A stretch of 46,551 bases of DNA from Fimbriimonadia bacterium. Its GTDB lineage: Bacteria > Armatimonadota > Fimbriimonadia > Fimbriimonadales > Fimbriimonadaceae. Shown here piece after piece: positions 8,859 through 33,285 of the stretch (positions are counted from its first letter, which is position 1; each line of letters starts with the position of its first letter). Made by a program: the position numbers and the translations under genes. The stretch is taken from positions 1 through 46,551 of the forward strand of contig JALGYA010000008.1 of the NCBI GenBank assembly GCA_029824475.1. Reading direction: 5' to 3'. The notes under the pieces were generated by a model. That model did no database searches. It was not told the origin of the DNA and saw nothing but the letters and a program-made list of their open reading frames with translations.

Positions 8859-9473
8859 ATGAAGAATTTCCTGTCTTTACTGCTGATTTCGTCACTGCTT
8901 CTCGTCGGATGCGCCAAGAGTGAGGAGGCATCGACAACCGCCGTGCCGGAGAAGCCTGCTGAAACGGCCGTCACTCCTGAACCAATCGAAGAGTCCGAAC
9001 CCATCGTTATGCTCACGGCTGACAACCCCGCCAGCATGAGCGACATGGCCGGAAGCTGGACAGGCGAAATAGACTTTCCCGAAGAGCTCATCGAAGGCAT
9101 GAAGCAGATGATGTCTGGCATGGCCGAGGCGATGGGCGGCACACAGGACGGGAAGACGGCTGATGAACTCAAGCAGGATCTCGACGAAAAGATGGGCGAT
9201 GACCCGTTCGCTGACGCGAAGATCACCATGGAGCTGCGCGAGGATGGAACCTGCACACTGCACGACGATGGCACCGAAGGAAACTCGGAAGAGAGCACTT
9301 GGAGCCTGAATGACGACGGCACTGTTCTCACGGTCGTGACTCCCGCCAAAGAAGGCGAGGTCGGAAACATGATGCCCGACATGGTTCTGGGGATCTCAGA
9401 AGACATGGACACGATGCAGTTCGCCGAGGCTCAGATGGGCTTCGAGATGAAGATCACGTTCACTCGGGACTGA
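8859..9473 (+). CDS. Lipoprotein, copy A of a four-member tandem family
   Basis: Unknown-function exported lipoprotein of 204 aa with a signal ending LLLVGC (C18) and an acidic, Thr/Pro/Glu-rich linker to about residue 55. The rest shares four blocks with the genes at 9502, 10329 and 11205: MSDMAGSWTG, MELREDGTCTL, TWSLNDDGTVL and ISEDMDTMQF, ending FTRD. The alternating pattern suggests a small beta-rich (lipocalin-like) domain; that is inference. A Met-rich acidic segment (about 78-115) lies between blocks 1 and 2. An AGGTGA Shine-Dalgarno precedes the ATG. It is closest to copy B, 28 bases downstream, and probably co-transcribed with it. Confidence 0.85.
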   Translation: MKNFLSLLLISSLLLVGCAKSEEASTTAVPEKPAETAVTPEPIEESEPIVMLTADNPASMSDMAGSWTGEIDFPEELIEGMKQMMSGMAEAMGGTQDGKTADELKQDLDEKMGDDPFADAKITMELREDGTCTLHDDGTEGNSEESTWSLNDDGTVLTVVTPAKEGEVGNMMPDMVLGISEDMDTMQFAEAQMGFEMKITFTRD

Positions 9474-9501
9474 GCCTGGCTGCCTGGGGCGAAGGTGAAT
9501 C

Positions 9502-10095
9502 ATGAAAGGGCTAGTTTTTCTAGTGATCACGGCGTCGGCACTACTCGTCGGCTGCGGCAAGACGGAGCCTGTGGCCAAGTTGGCTTCGGATGGCGGGCTG
9601 GAAAGCGAAATCGCATTCAAGGCCTCTGAAGACCCCACCACGATGAAGGAGATGGCGGGCAGCTGGACCGGCACAATGGTCGCTCCTGGGATGGAGGCGA
9701 TGGTGAAGGAGATGGCCGTTGGTACTGCCGAGATATTCGAGTCTTTCGGGGGCGAGGAAAACGCCAAGTCCACTGAGGAGCTTGAGCAGGACCTGGAAGA
9801 GGAGTTGAAAAACATGAAGTTCTTGCTGGAGCTGCGGGCCAATGGGACATGCACATCAACCAGCAGCGGCCGGATGTACCAGCCAACCCACGGAAGCTGG
9901 TCCCTGAGCGAGGATGGGACAAAGCTCCTTCTCATTGAGAATCCGACATCAAAGACGTTTGAACAGGTCGATGGGAAGATGCAGGCGGTGTCTCAAGAGT
10001 TGGAATTTCAGATTTCGCCGGATAGGAACACCTTTCAACTCCACGACGTGGACGAATTCGTTGGGGAAGTCACGATGACTTACACTCGCGACTGA
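9502..10095 (+). CDS. Lipoprotein, copy B of the tandem family
   Basis: A 197-residue lipoprotein with signal ending ALLVGC (C18), then GK. It keeps all four family blocks: MKEMAGSWTG, LELRANGTCT, SWSLSEDGTKL and ISPDRNTFQL, and ends YTRD. Compared with copy A the linker is shorter and the Met-rich segment is replaced by an acidic helix-like stretch (about 75-108). The same AGGTGAATC leader precedes the ATG as in copy A, consistent with a recent duplication of the pair. Function unknown. Confidence 0.85.
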   Translation: MKGLVFLVITASALLVGCGKTEPVAKLASDGGLESEIAFKASEDPTTMKEMAGSWTGTMVAPGMEAMVKEMAVGTAEIFESFGGEENAKSTEELEQDLEEELKNMKFLLELRANGTCTSTSSGRMYQPTHGSWSLSEDGTKLLLIENPTSKTFEQVDGKMQAVSQELEFQISPDRNTFQLHDVDEFVGEVTMTYTRD

Positions 10096-10157
10096 ACAGC
10101 CGCAGCTCAAGTGCCGTTCGGCTCGTCTAGGCTTCAAACAGGCTCATGAGTTACTAG

Positions 10158-10256
10158 GTGATTTCACTTCCGGTCCTGCTGATCGCTGCTGTGGTTGTAA
10201 TTGGAGTTGTGGTTGCCGCTGTGTGCTTCCTGGTCTTCGGTTCGAAGAAGCGCTGA
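10158..10256 (+). CDS. Possible 32-aa single-pass membrane peptide
   Basis: A short open frame starting GTG, encoding an almost uninterrupted hydrophobic helix (residues about 4-27, rich in Val, Ile, Leu and Ala) and ending FGSKKR, a positively charged tail. It lies between lipoprotein copies B and C on the same strand. The Shine-Dalgarno is weak and an in-frame TAG directly precedes the start, so only the very hydrophobic composition and the charged end support it. It may be a chance ORF. Confidence 0.3.
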   Translation: MISLPVLLIAAVVVIGVVVAAVCFLVFGSKKR

Positions 10257-10328
10257 GCGCGGCTGATCGGGCACACGGTAACGGAGTCTCCGGCCGCGGA
10301 TGTTGATCGAATCCTGTTTGCTAAATAG

Positions 10329-10880
10329 ATGGGATTGAAGACTGTAGGATTGGGGTTGTTTGTGGCAGCCACGTTCGCCGTCGCTTTCGGCTGTGGCAAG
10401 GATAACGGCTCTGAATCCCAGGTTGACATTGATGCGCTGGTCGCTGACTTTCAGCCTCTTGCTTCCGGGAGTTCAGTCACAGCGGGAGAGATGGTCGGGG
10501 TCTACACTGGCTATAACGGACCCAACAAGAAGCTTGCCGATGACTTGAAGTCCAAGGTCGACTTATCGGACGTGCCTGAGGATGAAGCCTGGATGATGCC
10601 GTGGGAGGTTCAAGGCACAAAGTTGGACCTGCGGGCAGATGGGACAGCGATAACTGTAATAACCAAAGTGTCAGGCGAGACGCCGCCAGCACCGGAAGCT
10701 CCGTCAATCTCGACATGGCGGCTCAGCTCCGGAGGGCGAGCTCTGATTGTCGACCACGGGGACGACTTGACGATCAACTACATGATCTCCTCCGACAAGA
10801 AGACGCTCATGCACAGTCTTGACTGGTCTTTCGGCACCGGTTCTGGCATGAAGTCGTATGAGATTGTCACTCGTGACTAG
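10329..10880 (+). CDS. Lipoprotein, copy C of the tandem family
   Basis: A 183-residue lipoprotein with signal ending VAFGC (C22). Family blocks are present in altered form: AGEMVGVYTG, LDLRADGTAI, TWRLSSGGRAL and ISSDKKTLMH, with the end IVTRD. Just before block 1 it has ALVADFQPLA, matched in copy D by ALAAAFQPMA, so C and D form one sub-pair and A and B another. No clear Shine-Dalgarno precedes the ATG. Function unknown; cell-surface or periplasmic location is expected. Confidence 0.82.
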   Translation: MGLKTVGLGLFVAATFAVAFGCGKDNGSESQVDIDALVADFQPLASGSSVTAGEMVGVYTGYNGPNKKLADDLKSKVDLSDVPEDEAWMMPWEVQGTKLDLRADGTAITVITKVSGETPPAPEAPSISTWRLSSGGRALIVDHGDDLTINYMISSDKKTLMHSLDWSFGTGSGMKSYEIVTRD

Positions 10881-10968
10881 GCAGGCTGTAGCCGCTCGCC
10901 TAGGAAACCTGTGAGCATTGAATTTCACTTAGATCAGTCATAATCGCCTCTATGGTGGGAGGTTTCTT

Positions 10969-11133
10969 TTGACGAGGGTTCGTAAGCTTGCCACTGCTTT
11001 CTTTCTCATCTTGGCCTTTTATTCCCTCTGGGGCAAGGAACTGGATTGGGCGATTTGGGTCTCAGCTATTGGAATTCTAGGATTCTTGGCTGCACAGTAC
11101 ATCCCTGACGGTCCGAGCAGGAAGGACGACTAG
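10969..11133 (+). CDS. Small two-TM membrane protein, 54 aa
   Basis: A 54-codon frame starting TTG with an excellent Shine-Dalgarno, GGGAGG at 10957-10962, 6 bases before the start. The product has a basic N-terminus (MTRVRKLA), a hydrophobic helix at about 8-20, a short WGKELDW turn, a second helix at about 27-43 and a charged tail ending PSRKDD. This positive-inside, two-helix layout looks like a real small inner-membrane protein. It lies between lipoprotein copies C and D. No family recognised. Confidence 0.65.
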   Translation: MTRVRKLATAFFLILAFYSLWGKELDWAIWVSAIGILGFLAAQYIPDGPSRKDD

Positions 11134-11192
11134 AAGTCGGCAGCGGCGTTCCTCAGGTGGAGGCGCTGGCTTCGGACTTGGGCAAGATGCTA

Positions 11193-11198
11193 TACAAT
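11193..11198 (+). promoter_or_regulatory. Candidate -10 element giving a leaderless transcript
   Basis: TACAAT (in TATACAATGA) matches the bacterial -10 consensus at five of six positions and ends exactly 6 bases before the ATG of lipoprotein copy D, so transcription would start at or next to the A of ATG. No Shine-Dalgarno is present. A weak -35 candidate is TTCGGA at 11171-11176. Confidence 0.45.
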
Positions 11199-11204
11199 GA
11201 AGAC

Positions 11205-11834
11205 ATGAAAAAGAGAGCATGGGGCCTTGTCATTTTTTGCGCGTTGACAGTTTTGATCCTAGGAGGTTGCGGGAAGGAAGAGCCCGTACCAGTCACGCCG
11301 GTTCCTGCGAAATTCTCGGAATCCGAACCAGAACCTGCAGCAAAAACTAGCCCTGCACCTGTGGCGGAACTGACAGGAATTGATGCGCTTGCGGCGGCGT
11401 TCCAACCCATGGCTTATCATGAGTCCACAAGCTTTGAAGAGATGGCTGGCGATTACGTTGGGTTCGACGGTTCGTCGCGAGAGTTGATTGAGAGCATGCG
11501 GGCGAGAAGTGATGATGAGGAGGAAGAGGACAGCTTTGATCCGTGGGCTACGTATCCAGTCACCTTGAATCTGCACAGCGATGGCACAGCGGTCCTTTCT
11601 TCTGATGACCCTGAAATGACAAGGCGCCTTGAAGGAGAATTTGCAGACCTCAGTTGGAAGCTTAATTCAACTTTAAGACACGTCGCACTCGTTTCGGAGA
11701 AGTGGAACTTCACCATCATGTACGAGATCTCGCAAGACAAGAGAACACTCCTCTTCACCCAGAACAGCGGCATCGATGCCAGCTACAAGTACTTCCAGTG
11801 GCAGATCGTATCAAAGGACGAACTGAAGCTCTGA
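11205..11834 (+). CDS. Lipoprotein, copy D of the tandem family
   Basis: A 209-residue lipoprotein. The start at 11205 is chosen because MKKRAWG opens a proper lipoprotein signal ending LILGGC (C22); an upstream in-frame ATG/GTG would spoil it. A Pro/Glu-rich linker runs to about residue 55. Family blocks: FEEMAGDYVG, LNLHSDGTAV, SWKLNSTLRHV and ISQDKRTLLF. The conserved final TRD is replaced by SKDELKL. Its stop TGA directly abuts the stop of the convergent DUF1501 gene. Function unknown. Confidence 0.84.
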   Translation: MKKRAWGLVIFCALTVLILGGCGKEEPVPVTPVPAKFSESEPEPAAKTSPAPVAELTGIDALAAAFQPMAYHESTSFEEMAGDYVGFDGSSRELIESMRARSDDEEEEDSFDPWATYPVTLNLHSDGTAVLSSDDPEMTRRLEGEFADLSWKLNSTLRHVALVSEKWNFTIMYEISQDKRTLLFTQNSGIDASYKYFQWQIVSKDELKL

Positions 11835-25697: not shown

Positions 25698-26435
25698 TTA
25701 CAAACCCCGCATTGAATCAGCAGTTGACATCAGGTCTCGAATCTGACGGTCCCCTGCCAAAATGACAATGAATCGGCCTTCGCGCCATGAGACGCAAGGC
25801 AGATCATTCAGTCTGCCGGTCATCATTCCGCTCGCGGCAGGATTTTCAAGTCCCTCCACGGCGCGGGTGTCTTCGATGACGAACAGCATCAAGTTTCCAA
25901 TAGCATCAGAGCATGTGACCCGGGCGGCTTTTTTGCCCTGGATCATGCCTGTTGCAACCTCGTCGATGACGAGCATCGTCTCGTCGAGGCCTGAGGGAGA
26001 AGTGCCGACTCTGGATCGGAGCAGGTCTGAGACGCTGTCTGGTCTCGCACTGCCCTCCATCGGCTTCAATTCTGTAAATAGGCTGGCCATCTCACCTGAT
26101 GTGAGATCGGCTCCTGTTCTGGATGGGCCATAGAAGGCAGCGGTGGCGATTGCGATGACGAAAATTGCGCAGAACGACCAGGCGTACTTTTCGACAAATC
26201 GGTCGGCGCCTTTGGTTCGGTCCATTGCCGCGATCTGCTTCATCGCCTTGGTCCAGCACTCTTCGTCTTCGACCTTGCGGCACTTGCAGCTGAGAAGCTG
26301 CTTGATGCAGACCACCCATCGGTACTCAACTTGTGCTTGAGCGTCGGATGCGACGTGTCGCTCCGCTTCAGCCTTCTGCTCGGCTGTCAGCTCACCGTCC
26401 ACTAAAGCGTGAACATCGAGTTCGTTGTCGTTCAA
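25698..26435 (-). CDS. Membrane anti-sigma factor partner of the adjacent ECF sigma
   Basis: A 245-residue protein with an N-terminal anti-sigma-like domain (HALVDGELTAEQKAEAERHV), one transmembrane helix at about 86-103, and an extracytoplasmic part of about 140 aa. It overlaps the sigma gene by ATGA, the usual arrangement for a cognate regulator. The ZAS zinc motif (H-x3-C-x2-C) is absent, since H27 is followed by no Cys; instead C43, C50, C52 and C60 lie further on. Those could bind metal or respond to redox (inference). It would hold the sigma factor at the membrane until a signal releases it. Confidence 0.8.
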   Translation of the reverse strand: MNDNELDVHALVDGELTAEQKAEAERHVASDAQAQVEYRWVVCIKQLLSCKCRKVEDEECWTKAMKQIAAMDRTKGADRFVEKYAWSFCAIFVIAIATAAFYGPSRTGADLTSGEMASLFTELKPMEGSARPDSVSDLLRSRVGTSPSGLDETMLVIDEVATGMIQGKKAARVTCSDAIGNLMLFVIEDTRAVEGLENPAASGMMTGRLNDLPCVSWREGRFIVILAGDRQIRDLMSTADSMRGL

Positions 26436-28997: not shown

Positions 28998-29186
28998 CTA
29001 GCTGACTGCCAGCTCCGGCTCTCTGTCCGGAACTTCAGCCACTGCTGCAAACGCCGCCTCTGCGGGAACGGGGGCCGGTTCGAGGCCGTAGCCGTCTTCT
29101 CCGTGATAGGCGAGATCGAGACCGAGCTGTTCGCACTCCTCGTTGGAGCGGAGGCCTACGACTTTGTCGATCGCTTTCGCCAAAAC
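28998..29186 (-). pseudogene. amt: Displaced C-terminal 62 codons of amt (out of frame)
   Basis: This stretch encodes VLAKAIDKVVGLR, then EEEC-type and GLDLAYHGEDGYG residues, which are the end of the last helix and the conserved cytosolic C-terminal region of ammonium transporters. It is out of frame with the gene upstream because of a 17-bp tandem duplication. With one copy removed the frame joins exactly after W395 and gives a 457-residue protein of normal length. The segment is not a gene by itself; no start or Shine-Dalgarno precedes it. Confidence 0.85.
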
Positions 29187-30388
29187 CCACGTCCCGCAGA
29201 AAGCCACGTCCCGCAGAACGCGAAGGCAATTGTCGCGCCGGCTGCAGCGAGCTGTACAAGCACCAGCTGCATTCGGCCATTTTCGAGTGCGCCTGCAGCT
29301 GCGGAGTTGACCGCAGGTGAGGCGAAGACACCGGTGAGAATCGAGCCCAGGAGCCCACCAACTCCGTGGACCGCGACGACGTCCAGAGCGTCGTCGTAGC
29401 CGAGCTTGTGCTTCAGGTCCACCGCGAGGCAGCAGACGCCGCCGGCGAGAAGGCCGATTGCCAGCGCACCACCGACTCCCACAAAGCCTGCAGCTGGCGT
29501 GATGCCGACAAGACCCGCGACGAGACCGCTGGCGGCTCCGATCGCCGTGATCTTCTTCTGTTTGATCCACTCAACCGACATCCAACTAATGAGGCCCGCT
29601 GCTGCCGCCAGATGCGTCGTGAGAAAAGCATTGACAGCAATGGAGTCCATAGCCAGAGCGGATCCAGCGTTGAATCCAAACCAGCCGAACCACAACAGGC
29701 CGGCACCGAGCAGAGTGAGTGTGATGTTGTTGGGCGGAAGGCTTTTGCCCTTGCGTGGCCCAAGAATCATGACCAGCGCTATGGCAGAGACGCCGCTTGC
29801 TAAGTGGACAACCGTGCCGCCGGCGAAGTCAAGCGCGCCGAGATTCATCAGCCAGCCGTTGGAGTTCCATGTCCAGCAGGCGAGCGGGGCATAGATCAGG
29901 AGCGACCAGAGCAGCGTGAATACCAGATAGCCGCTGAACTTGATTCGCTCAGCAACAGCACCAGAAATCAGCGCTGGTGTGATGATCGCAAACTTCATCT
30001 GGAACAGCATGAAGAGCGCAGCCGGGATCGTCTGTTCGCCCAGCGGAGTATCGAGCGAGATGTTCTGGCCCCAGAGATACTGGATGCTTCCGATGAAGCC
30101 AGTTGTGGATTCACCGAACGCCAACGAGTAGCCGAGCATCGCCCAGCTGATGCTGGAGACGCCCATCATCACGAAGCTGAGAAGCATCGTGTTCAGAACG
30201 TTCTTCTTCTGGACCATTCCACCGTAGAAGAGGGCCAGAGCAGGGGTCATGAGCAGCACGAGGGCCGTTGACACGATCATCCATGTGGAATCACCTTTGT
30301 CGATGGCTGGCTCGGCGCTTTGGGCAAATGAAAGGGCGGGCAGCGCGATGGCTGCTCCAAGCGCGGATATTCTCTTGTATGCGTTCAC
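29156..30388 (-). CDS. amt: Ammonium transporter, frameshifted near the 3' end
   Basis: Inner-membrane Amt/Mep/Rh channel for ammonium uptake. It has a signal peptide (cleavage near FAQS, residue 24) and about 11 helices. The pore residues match AmtB: D187 and H195 in ALDFAGGTVVH and H341 in VAVHGVGG. After FCGTW (391-395) a 17-bp duplication shifts the frame, adding 15 unrelated residues (LSAGRGFW...) and a stop. The conserved C-terminal region that contacts PII proteins and couples the subunits is therefore lost from this frame. The start is GTG with GAGG 8 bases upstream. No glnK is adjacent. The shift may be a true mutation, a reversible switch or a sequence error. Confidence 0.93.
   Translation of the reverse strand: MNAYKRISALGAAIALPALSFAQSAEPAIDKGDSTWMIVSTALVLLMTPALALFYGGMVQKKNVLNTMLLSFVMMGVSSISWAMLGYSLAFGESTTGFIGSIQYLWGQNISLDTPLGEQTIPAALFMLFQMKFAIITPALISGAVAERIKFSGYLVFTLLWSLLIYAPLACWTWNSNGWLMNLGALDFAGGTVVHLASGVSAIALVMILGPRKGKSLPPNNITLTLLGAGLLWFGWFGFNAGSALAMDSIAVNAFLTTHLAAAAGLISWMSVEWIKQKKITAIGAASGLVAGLVGITPAAGFVGVGGALAIGLLAGGVCCLAVDLKHKLGYDDALDVVAVHGVGGLLGSILTGVFASPAVNSAAAGALENGRMQLVLVQLAAAGATIAFAFCGTWLSAGRGFWRKRSTKS
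29187..29220. repeat. 17-bp tandem duplication inside amt
   Basis: Two adjacent 17-bp units, 29187-29203 and 29204-29220, are identical at 16 of 17 positions (CCACGTCCCGCAGAA then AG or CG). Seventeen is not a multiple of three, and deleting one unit restores the ammonium-transporter frame exactly. Confidence 0.95.
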
Positions 30389-30542: not shown

Positions 30543-32174
30543 TTACTCAAGACTTGCGCCAACGAAGCCCACCGAGGACGCATCGGCCTCAACACGTGAT
30601 CGTACGACGAGCCGAATAGTTGGGTCGACGTGCTCATGGATGAGAGCTTCAATCTCTGCAACCGTTTCGGGGTCGACGACCTGCGGAGTGCGGGCGGAAG
30701 CGACCACCCGCCAAGCACCGTTTTCTTGACTCAGGTTCAGGGCGGACAGCGTCGCCCCAGGAATGCGGGTGCCGAGCTGATTCTTCAGCGCGGCCTCGAG
30801 CCTGGTCTGAAGACGCTGCTGCTCCTCGGGGACGGTGGGCTCGACAGGACGGTAGAGGAAATTAGACTTGTTCGCGACGATCGTCAAAATCGACCTGACC
30901 CTAAGATTGTAGTTTCGGCCTGTCTGCTCAATGACTGCTTTTTCTAGTGCGGCTACGTCTCCAGGCGAAAGGGCTGTTGGCGTGCTGACTTCGGCAAGAA
31001 CCTCAGAACCTGTTTCGATATTAGGGATCTCGAGCTTGATGAGCCCAGCGCCGCTGAATCCTTGGAGGCTTTGAGTCAGGGAGCTGTAGACGCCGTTGTA
31101 GATGCGCGATCTCTCATTCTGCTCGTGCTGCCGGTCCAGCTCAGCTTGCGGGACGAAAACCGGTCCTGCAGCATTGTGGTCTGAGGAGACGAGCGACCGC
31201 ACGGTCAGGCTCGCATCTCGTCCAATCGCTTCGATGACACTCTCCTGCATCTTGGCCACGAGGACTGGCTCGAATGTCTGCGGCGTCAGATAGGCTGCCA
31301 TGATGATGATCTCGCCCGTCTCCAGGAACTGCACATCGAAGTTTGATAGGGCTGATCCGTTGACTTCGCCAGCCAGCTTGGTCAGCTCCGTCTTGACGAT
31401 GTTGCGTGTCTCCGCCTCCTGGAAGCTGATCGAGAACGATCTGTAGAACCAGTAGGACATGGCGAGCAGAAGAATCGCGCTCCAACCGAACTGCTTCCAG
31501 ACTGAGCTCCAGCCTTTCCAGGACCACCAGGCTCCAAGCTTGTACGCTGCGAAGATGCCGGCAGCAGCCAGCTCAATGGCTAGGATGTTGACCGCGAAGA
31601 GGAGAAACGCGCCGAATGCCAGCCGCCACTCCTCAGCCGCCAGGCAGATGCCGCAGGAAGCGAGCGTAGGGACGAGCGCGGTGGCAATCGCGACGCCCGG
31701 AAGGGACGTGCTCAGCTTGGGATTCACGAGGGCGTATGCTCCAGCCAGACCCGAAGCGAGTGCAATCAGGATGTCGTAGATGCTCGGATTTGTTCTGGAC
31801 AGGATTTCACTGGAGAGATCTATCAGCGGAGCCATGCTCCCGACCACCCAGCCCAGCCCAATGACGAGCGCGATGCCCAAGACTTCAGCCAGCAGCGATT
31901 TGACCAGCAGCCGCTGGTCATCGCGAATAAGCGCTAAAGCGATACCGAAGATCGGCCCCATGAGAGGAGCGACCAGCATCGCTCCGATGACGACAGCTGT
32001 CGATCCTTGGAGGAGGCCATATCCGGCGATGGCGGCGGAGAGAATCGTCAGAACGAAGTACGACCTGACAGGCGTGCTCATCGCCTCAATCTGATGCAGT
32101 GAAGAGGTCTTTTCTTCAGCAGTGAGCTTGAAGGCACCCTCCATGAAGAGGTACCTGCGCAGAGTTGCCAGCAT
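30543..32174 (-). CDS. DUF389 membrane protein with three C-terminal repeats
   Basis: A 543-residue inner-membrane protein. The N-terminal half holds the DUF389 domain with about six helices (roughly 35-245), including the typical GSTAVVIGAMLVAPLMGPI and SLPGVAIATALVPTLASCG. The C-terminal half holds three copies of a repeat of about 52 residues (near 267-319, 369-419 and 466-517), each with TP, then VA and an ending LxVRS. These soluble repeats are not part of the standard DUF389 and resemble BON-like modules. Start choice is uncertain: ATG at 32174 is used, while a TTG at 32183 directly follows the mqnE stop. DUF389 proteins have no established activity. Confidence 0.88.
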   Translation of the reverse strand: MLATLRRYLFMEGAFKLTAEEKTSSLHQIEAMSTPVRSYFVLTILSAAIAGYGLLQGSTAVVIGAMLVAPLMGPIFGIALALIRDDQRLLVKSLLAEVLGIALVIGLGWVVGSMAPLIDLSSEILSRTNPSIYDILIALASGLAGAYALVNPKLSTSLPGVAIATALVPTLASCGICLAAEEWRLAFGAFLLFAVNILAIELAAAGIFAAYKLGAWWSWKGWSSVWKQFGWSAILLLAMSYWFYRSFSISFQEAETRNIVKTELTKLAGEVNGSALSNFDVQFLETGEIIIMAAYLTPQTFEPVLVAKMQESVIEAIGRDASLTVRSLVSSDHNAAGPVFVPQAELDRQHEQNERSRIYNGVYSSLTQSLQGFSGAGLIKLEIPNIETGSEVLAEVSTPTALSPGDVAALEKAVIEQTGRNYNLRVRSILTIVANKSNFLYRPVEPTVPEEQQRLQTRLEAALKNQLGTRIPGATLSALNLSQENGAWRVVASARTPQVVDPETVAEIEALIHEHVDPTIRLVVRSRVEADASSVGFVGASLE

Positions 32175-32183
32175 GTCCCTCAA

Positions 32184-33185
32184 TTAGGACGGTGTTGACA
32201 TCGAAACTGGTGTTAGTTTGCGAGAAGGCTTCGGCGGGGCCGATCGTTCGATTTCGTTGTAGTAGGAGTCGCGCTCGATGGGAGTGCGGCCAGCTTCGGT
32301 GATCATGTGCACCATATTGTCGTAGGTGAGCACCTGAGTCTTGTTGCCGAAATCTCCTTCGTTGTAGGTGATTTCGTACTCGTGGACCAGGCCGTCGCAG
32401 TCGTCGGCGCCGTACCAGAGGGCTGCCTGAGTGATTTCAGGCGTGTTCATGATCCAGAAGCTCTTGATGTGGTCGATGTTGTCGAGCATCAGACGGCTGA
32501 CGGCGATGTTGCGCAGATCCATGTCGCCGGTGAGCGCTTTGACATCTTCCAGCTCAGTGTTCTCTGGGTGGAACGAGAGCGGTGTGAATGAGACAATGCT
32601 GCCGATTTCGTCTTGGAGATCGCGGAGCTGATCCATGTGCTCAACTCGTTCGCGGGCCGTTTCAATATGGCCGTACAGCATCGTCGAATACTGGGGGATG
32701 TTGAGTGAAGCCGCGTCTCGGGCCACGATTTCAACGGCAGTGAACGCCTTGACGTGCGCTCCAGGCACGACCTCTTTGACCGCTTTGCAGAGGTCCATGT
32801 AGTACTCGTACTTTAGCCGCGGGTTGATGCCGCCAACCATGTGGACTTCGGTGATCCCAACCTCTTCGTGCCATCGAAGTCGAGCTTTGACCTCGTCGAT
32901 CGACATCTCGTAGGGGGTTGGGCCGCCCTTCTTGGCGTAGAACGAGCAGAACTTGCAGAACTTGTTGCAGATGTTGGTGTAGTTGATGTGCTGGTTGCGG
33001 ATGAAGTACGCCTTGTCGCCGTTCTTCCGTTCGCGCACGATGTTCGCCATGTAGGCGACACCGGTGAGATTCTTGGTCTCGTAGAGTCGAATTCCATCTT
33101 CGACAGAGAGGCGCTCGCCCTTGTCCACCTTGGTATAGATGTCCATGAGGTCGGCGCCGACAATCCGTTCTGGAGAGAGTCCCAT
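32184..33185 (-). CDS. mqnE: Aminofutalosine synthase (radical SAM)
   Basis: Radical SAM enzyme of the futalosine route to menaquinone, joining 3-enolpyruvyl-benzoate derivatives to adenosyl to make aminofutalosine. The cluster motif is CNKFCKFC (C73, C77, C80 from the start used) within HINYTNIC. The C-terminal half shows FWIMNTPEITQAALWYGADD, and the end TEAGRTPIERDSYYN is typical of MqnE rather than MqnC. The ATG at 33185 has GGAG 9 bases upstream; a TTG at 33209 without a Shine-Dalgarno is the alternative. It is directly followed by the DUF389 gene. Other men/mqn genes are not in the window. Confidence 0.9.
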   Translation of the reverse strand: MGLSPERIVGADLMDIYTKVDKGERLSVEDGIRLYETKNLTGVAYMANIVRERKNGDKAYFIRNQHINYTNICNKFCKFCSFYAKKGGPTPYEMSIDEVKARLRWHEEVGITEVHMVGGINPRLKYEYYMDLCKAVKEVVPGAHVKAFTAVEIVARDAASLNIPQYSTMLYGHIETARERVEHMDQLRDLQDEIGSIVSFTPLSFHPENTELEDVKALTGDMDLRNIAVSRLMLDNIDHIKSFWIMNTPEITQAALWYGADDCDGLVHEYEITYNEGDFGNKTQVLTYDNMVHMITEAGRTPIERDSYYNEIERSAPPKPSRKLTPVSMSTPS

Positions 33186-33285
33186 CTGCAAGAGCTCCGC
33201 TGGTTTCAACTTTGATTGAAATCAGCTTTCTGATTATGGCTTACGCCGCGACGGTCCGTTAAGTTTGCCGCAGGAGGTCCCGGGT

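Follow-up and report, generated by a model that had tools for sequence, protein, structure and literature searches.

The ammonium transporter gene (amt) on the minus strand of the window, the 46,551-nucleotide stretch of DNA that was analysed, carries a short tandem repeat at codon W395, and its reading frame stops shortly afterwards. This raises the question of whether a transporter gene has been lost in this genome, whether the repeat serves to turn it on and off, or whether the break was introduced during sequencing or assembly.

The 17-bp repeat and the interrupted amt frame

The repeat and the two parts of the gene that it separates are located as follows:

29156 to 30388, minus strand: amt open frame with a GTG start, coding for residues 1-395 and then for 15 residues out of frame before it stops (410 aa; PF00909)
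29204 to 29220, minus strand: copy 1 of the 17-bp unit, in gene direction CGTTCTGCGGGACGTGG, ending with codon W395
29187 to 29203, minus strand: copy 2 of the 17-bp unit, in gene direction CTTTCTGCGGGACGTGG, differing from copy 1 by one base
28998 to 29186, minus strand: displaced 3' part of amt, with 62 codons (VLAKAIDKVVGLRSNEECEQLGLDLAYHGEDGYG...) and a stop, encoding the end of the final membrane helix together with the conserved C-terminal region on the cytoplasmic side (PF00909 360-399)

The tandem duplication of the original prediction is present head to tail at 29187-29220, although it is not exact, as the copies match at 16 of 17 bases. The sole mismatch between 29187-29203 and 29204-29220 is 29202 (A) versus 29219 (C), which falls near the edge of the unit, at the third base of an Ala codon in copy one, and leaves 15 bp as the longest identical stretch at offset 17. 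TRF placed the array at 29183-29218 with a 94% match, the highest score of any array in the window, where the repeat was also the only run of at least 15 at periods of 10-59; 200 triplet shuffles of the window gave no run of at least 15 at these periods. By inspection, no clear direct repeat was seen at the single-copy breakpoints that would point to a microhomology origin.

The long frame matched PF00909 over profile positions 2-368 of 399 with 373 bits, above the curated cut-off of 23.2, which places it in the Amt/Mep/Rh family. The pore landmarks WNSNGW, LDFAGG..VHL and VHGVGG all lie upstream of the break, and both conserved histidine regions are present, with motifs at residues 184-199 and 338-345 in the alignment to Archaeoglobus fulgidus Amt-1. 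In having a full pore part and both histidine regions the gene resembles characterised Amt/Mep/Rh transporters (A. fulgidus Amt-1, PDB 2b2f; E. coli AmtB, PDB 2nuu), whereas the standard C-terminal region here lies in the displaced frame and the amt reading frame stops before it. As had been predicted, the frame starting at 30388 ends 15 codons past W395, after 410 aa; the remaining 62 codons occupy another frame (29001-29186, with the stop at 28998-29000), so that 395 plus 62 residues make up an uninterrupted Amt of 457. The 410-aa product would bear LSAGRGFWR instead of VLA in the last helix, and the conserved C-terminal region (R, ExxGxD, Y) is absent from it, being encoded only in the displaced frame at 29001-29186.

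The displaced C-terminal region and the amt genes of relatives

The displaced frame matched PF00909 at profile positions 360-399 (E = 3.6e-4), and residues 402-442 of the Amt from G001, the only genome of the same genus that was compared, align to it. In the alignment to Amt-1, residue 396 of the query corresponds to residue 358 of the chain (offset 38). R408, E414, G417, D419 and Y428, in the numbering of the uninterrupted protein, correspond to R370, E376, G379, D381 and Y390 of Amt-1, and all of them are encoded in the displaced frame. These five residues are universally conserved in the Amt C-terminal region (PMC4852598). Mutations in ExxGxD inactivate Amts, and a change of the glycine abolishes the function of E. 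coli AmtB and plant Amt-1;1 alike (PMC4852598).

Comparison of the first 37 displaced codons with G001 gave 12 identical, 20 synonymous and 5 nonsynonymous codons. Four of the nonsynonymous changes are mild (V/I twice, A/V and E/D) and the fifth is K/M, with the K at this position found again in another family member. This codon pattern is the mark of purifying selection, which would have acted on the displaced tail until recently. Because the tail still shows such selection, the break in amt should be recent, polymorphic or not real.

The amt gene of G001 is 85% identical, and its C-terminal region is read in the same frame as the rest of the gene. It is preceded by the same two upstream genes, in the same order and on the same strand, whose counterparts in the window are:

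30543 to 32183, minus strand: upstream neighbour, which we take to be DUF389-like, homologous to the gene upstream of the G001 amt (76% identity)
32184 to 33209, minus strand: next gene upstream, presumably mqnE-like, whose end comes next in the same order in G001 (69% identity over 52 residues at the contig end)

At the Ala codon that bears the copy mismatch G001 has GCT, pointing to copy 2 as a possible carrier of the ancestral base, though synonymous positions are heavily diverged. The difference between the copies may have arisen before, with or after the duplication; if the base change postdates it, the duplication is older than one would conclude from the intact tail.

A search for amt genes was extended to 85 genomes of the family. 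The possibility raised beforehand, that the relatives all have the same short protein, was not borne out: 42 amt genes from 41 other family genomes, G001 included, are in frame through the C-terminal region and lack the duplication. As far as can be seen, the duplication would be private to the source genome among the family amt genes read. The split profile match, the intact syntenic relative and the conserved displaced tail agree with the predicted break of an otherwise intact Amt.

The amt gene of another family genome, G031, is broken at a different place, around residue 140, where a G run seems to have lost one base (L108; C34, about 26370-26400); this is either a sequencing error or a second, independent break. 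Recurrent breakage of amt in the family was considered and rejected, as there are only two true breaks and these are unlike each other; an apparent break in G100 is merely a run of N, and in G069 the end of a contig cuts the gene.

Origin of the break

Two adjacent copies, a unit length that is not a multiple of three, and relatives with a single copy and an intact frame characterise a tandem-duplication frameshift, and the amt case shows all of these. We regard it as likely that a sporadic event of this kind, recent or still polymorphic, has inactivated or nearly inactivated this solitary amt. The 17-bp duplication would have arisen sporadically within codons 390-395, with one base change added before, during or after it. 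As 17 bp do not make up whole codons, ribosomes would then read 15 wrong codons and meet a stop, and the product would lack the entire C-terminal region as well as the last membrane helix's cytoplasmic end. With the conserved C-terminal residues displaced, and since ExxGxD changes inactivate diverse Amts, loss of function of the 410-aa product is to be expected, and most likely the truncated transporter has lost its activity or is badly impaired. Because the displaced tail has not decayed, the duplication should be recent or still polymorphic. The assembled duplication, the frameshift, the intact relatives free of the duplication and the conserved tail are directly in the data; we infer that the duplication is real in cells and that function is lost. 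Of the three readings offered by the original prediction (a recent event, a switch, or an assembly or read error), the recent event fits best.

An artefact is unlikely, yet it carries a real chance. The real gene would be intact, and either contig ends or strain variants overlapping by 17 bp with one mismatch would have been butt-joined because their overlap went unnoticed, or a rare chimeric read would have entered the consensus. The genome is a fragmented draft of 344 contigs, the copies mismatch close to the unit's edge, where butt-joined variants would put the difference, the displaced tail is undecayed, and the one-base loss in the G run of the G031 amt may be the same kind of error. Set against this, the amt contig is gapless and no N runs were found inside the readable contigs examined, all N being whole masked contigs rather than scaffold gaps, so that there is no sign of scaffold joins. 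Moreover, the array is short, at 34 bp, and its copies differ by a base. Ordinary reads and the usual assembly k-mers are longer than an array of 34 bp in which 15 bp repeat exactly. A scan for repeats over the window and 83 contigs of the same genome, about 662 kb unmasked in all, revealed no other near-perfect tandem duplication of a length that is not a multiple of three; the remaining matches had periods of 18, 36 and 48, all multiples of 3. A duplication-prone genome or a systematic fault of the assembly was rejected, given that the amt case is unique in these ~662 kb.

A phase-variation switch, in which slipped-strand mispairing expands and contracts the unit and so toggles the C-terminal region and ammonium uptake, is very improbable. 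The out-of-frame tandem direct repeat and the intact displaced tail are what such a switch would have, but there are just two copies, these are imperfect, and the sampled contigs hold no similar repeat. Nor does the locus show the conservation expected of a contingency locus, since the repeat is absent from the same place in all 42 amt genes of the 41 family genomes, the same genus included, which read through without it; this part of the original prediction is not upheld. In the phase-variable promoter tandem repeats of M. tuberculosis Erdman (PMC12817950) copy number likewise would decide function, whereas the amt repeat consists of two imperfect copies that are not conserved in relatives. 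Tandem duplications with two copies are commonplace among ordinary mutations, and the mutations in the lrp gene of Xenorhabdus proved not to be phase variation (PMC6786866). A purpose-built switch is thus disfavoured and finds no support. As in any short tandem duplication, reversion by slippage over the 15 identical bases could occur, and nothing suggests that the repeat evolved in order to revert. Equally improbable is a duplication that is polymorphic in the natural population and acts as a slow reversible switch, silencing the solitary amt in some cells while the PII-adjacent Amt described below stays on.

The least probable reading is that the 410-aa protein is itself a working variant or that -1 ribosomal frameshifting reaches the tail: every pore landmark precedes the break, and downstream of the duplication there is a weak tetramer of the A_AAG type (CGA_AAG), but LSAGRGFWR would replace VLA in the last helix, characterised Amts require the region that would be lost (PMC4852598), and no canonical X_XXY_YYZ -1 heptamer was seen by inspection from the duplication to the stop.

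The second transporter and related cases

The same genome encodes a second, intact Amt (C255:1241-2431), directly downstream of which lies a PII-family gene (C255 2476-2778); together, at C255:1241-2778, they are likely an amtB-glnK pair. Two further PII genes are located elsewhere in the genome, and no PII match was found within the window around the broken, solitary amt. We infer that the intact Amt makes the loss of the solitary gene tolerable. The duplication is best read as an ordinary loss-of-function frameshift, recent or polymorphic, that affects one of the two amt genes, although there is a real chance that it is an assembly error.

No precedent closer than the lrp gene of Xenorhabdus was found in the literature searched; in that gene three tandem duplications of 26-116 bp were described as loss-of-function mutations and phase variation was tested and rejected (PMC6786866). 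In both genes a short stretch is copied head to tail and the protein is wrecked; the amt case differs in its length of 17 bp, in the one-base difference between its copies and in coming from a draft genome. It offers a clean example of a short tandem duplication silencing a gene whose displaced end is left intact. It also warns that in a draft genome annotated automatically the shortened transporter would be listed as a normal protein. Should the duplication be polymorphic, it would mark ammonium uptake in this lineage as subject to changing selection; apart from that, the finding is of minor importance.

Other repeated sequences were noted in the genome. At 1579-1750 and 2632-2696 of contig C3, imperfect tandem arrays repeat with periods of 48 and 36 bp (L106), both multiples of 3. 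The first 110 bases of C22 and C215 (L127 and L144) form a shared start with a 24-bp-spaced direct repeat, ACCATGTCCTGTC, which probably marks the boundary of a multicopy element at which the assembly breaks. Within the window, four successive, apparently related small lipoprotein-like genes at 8859-11834 (8859, 9502, 10329 and 11157) look like a tandem paralogue family.
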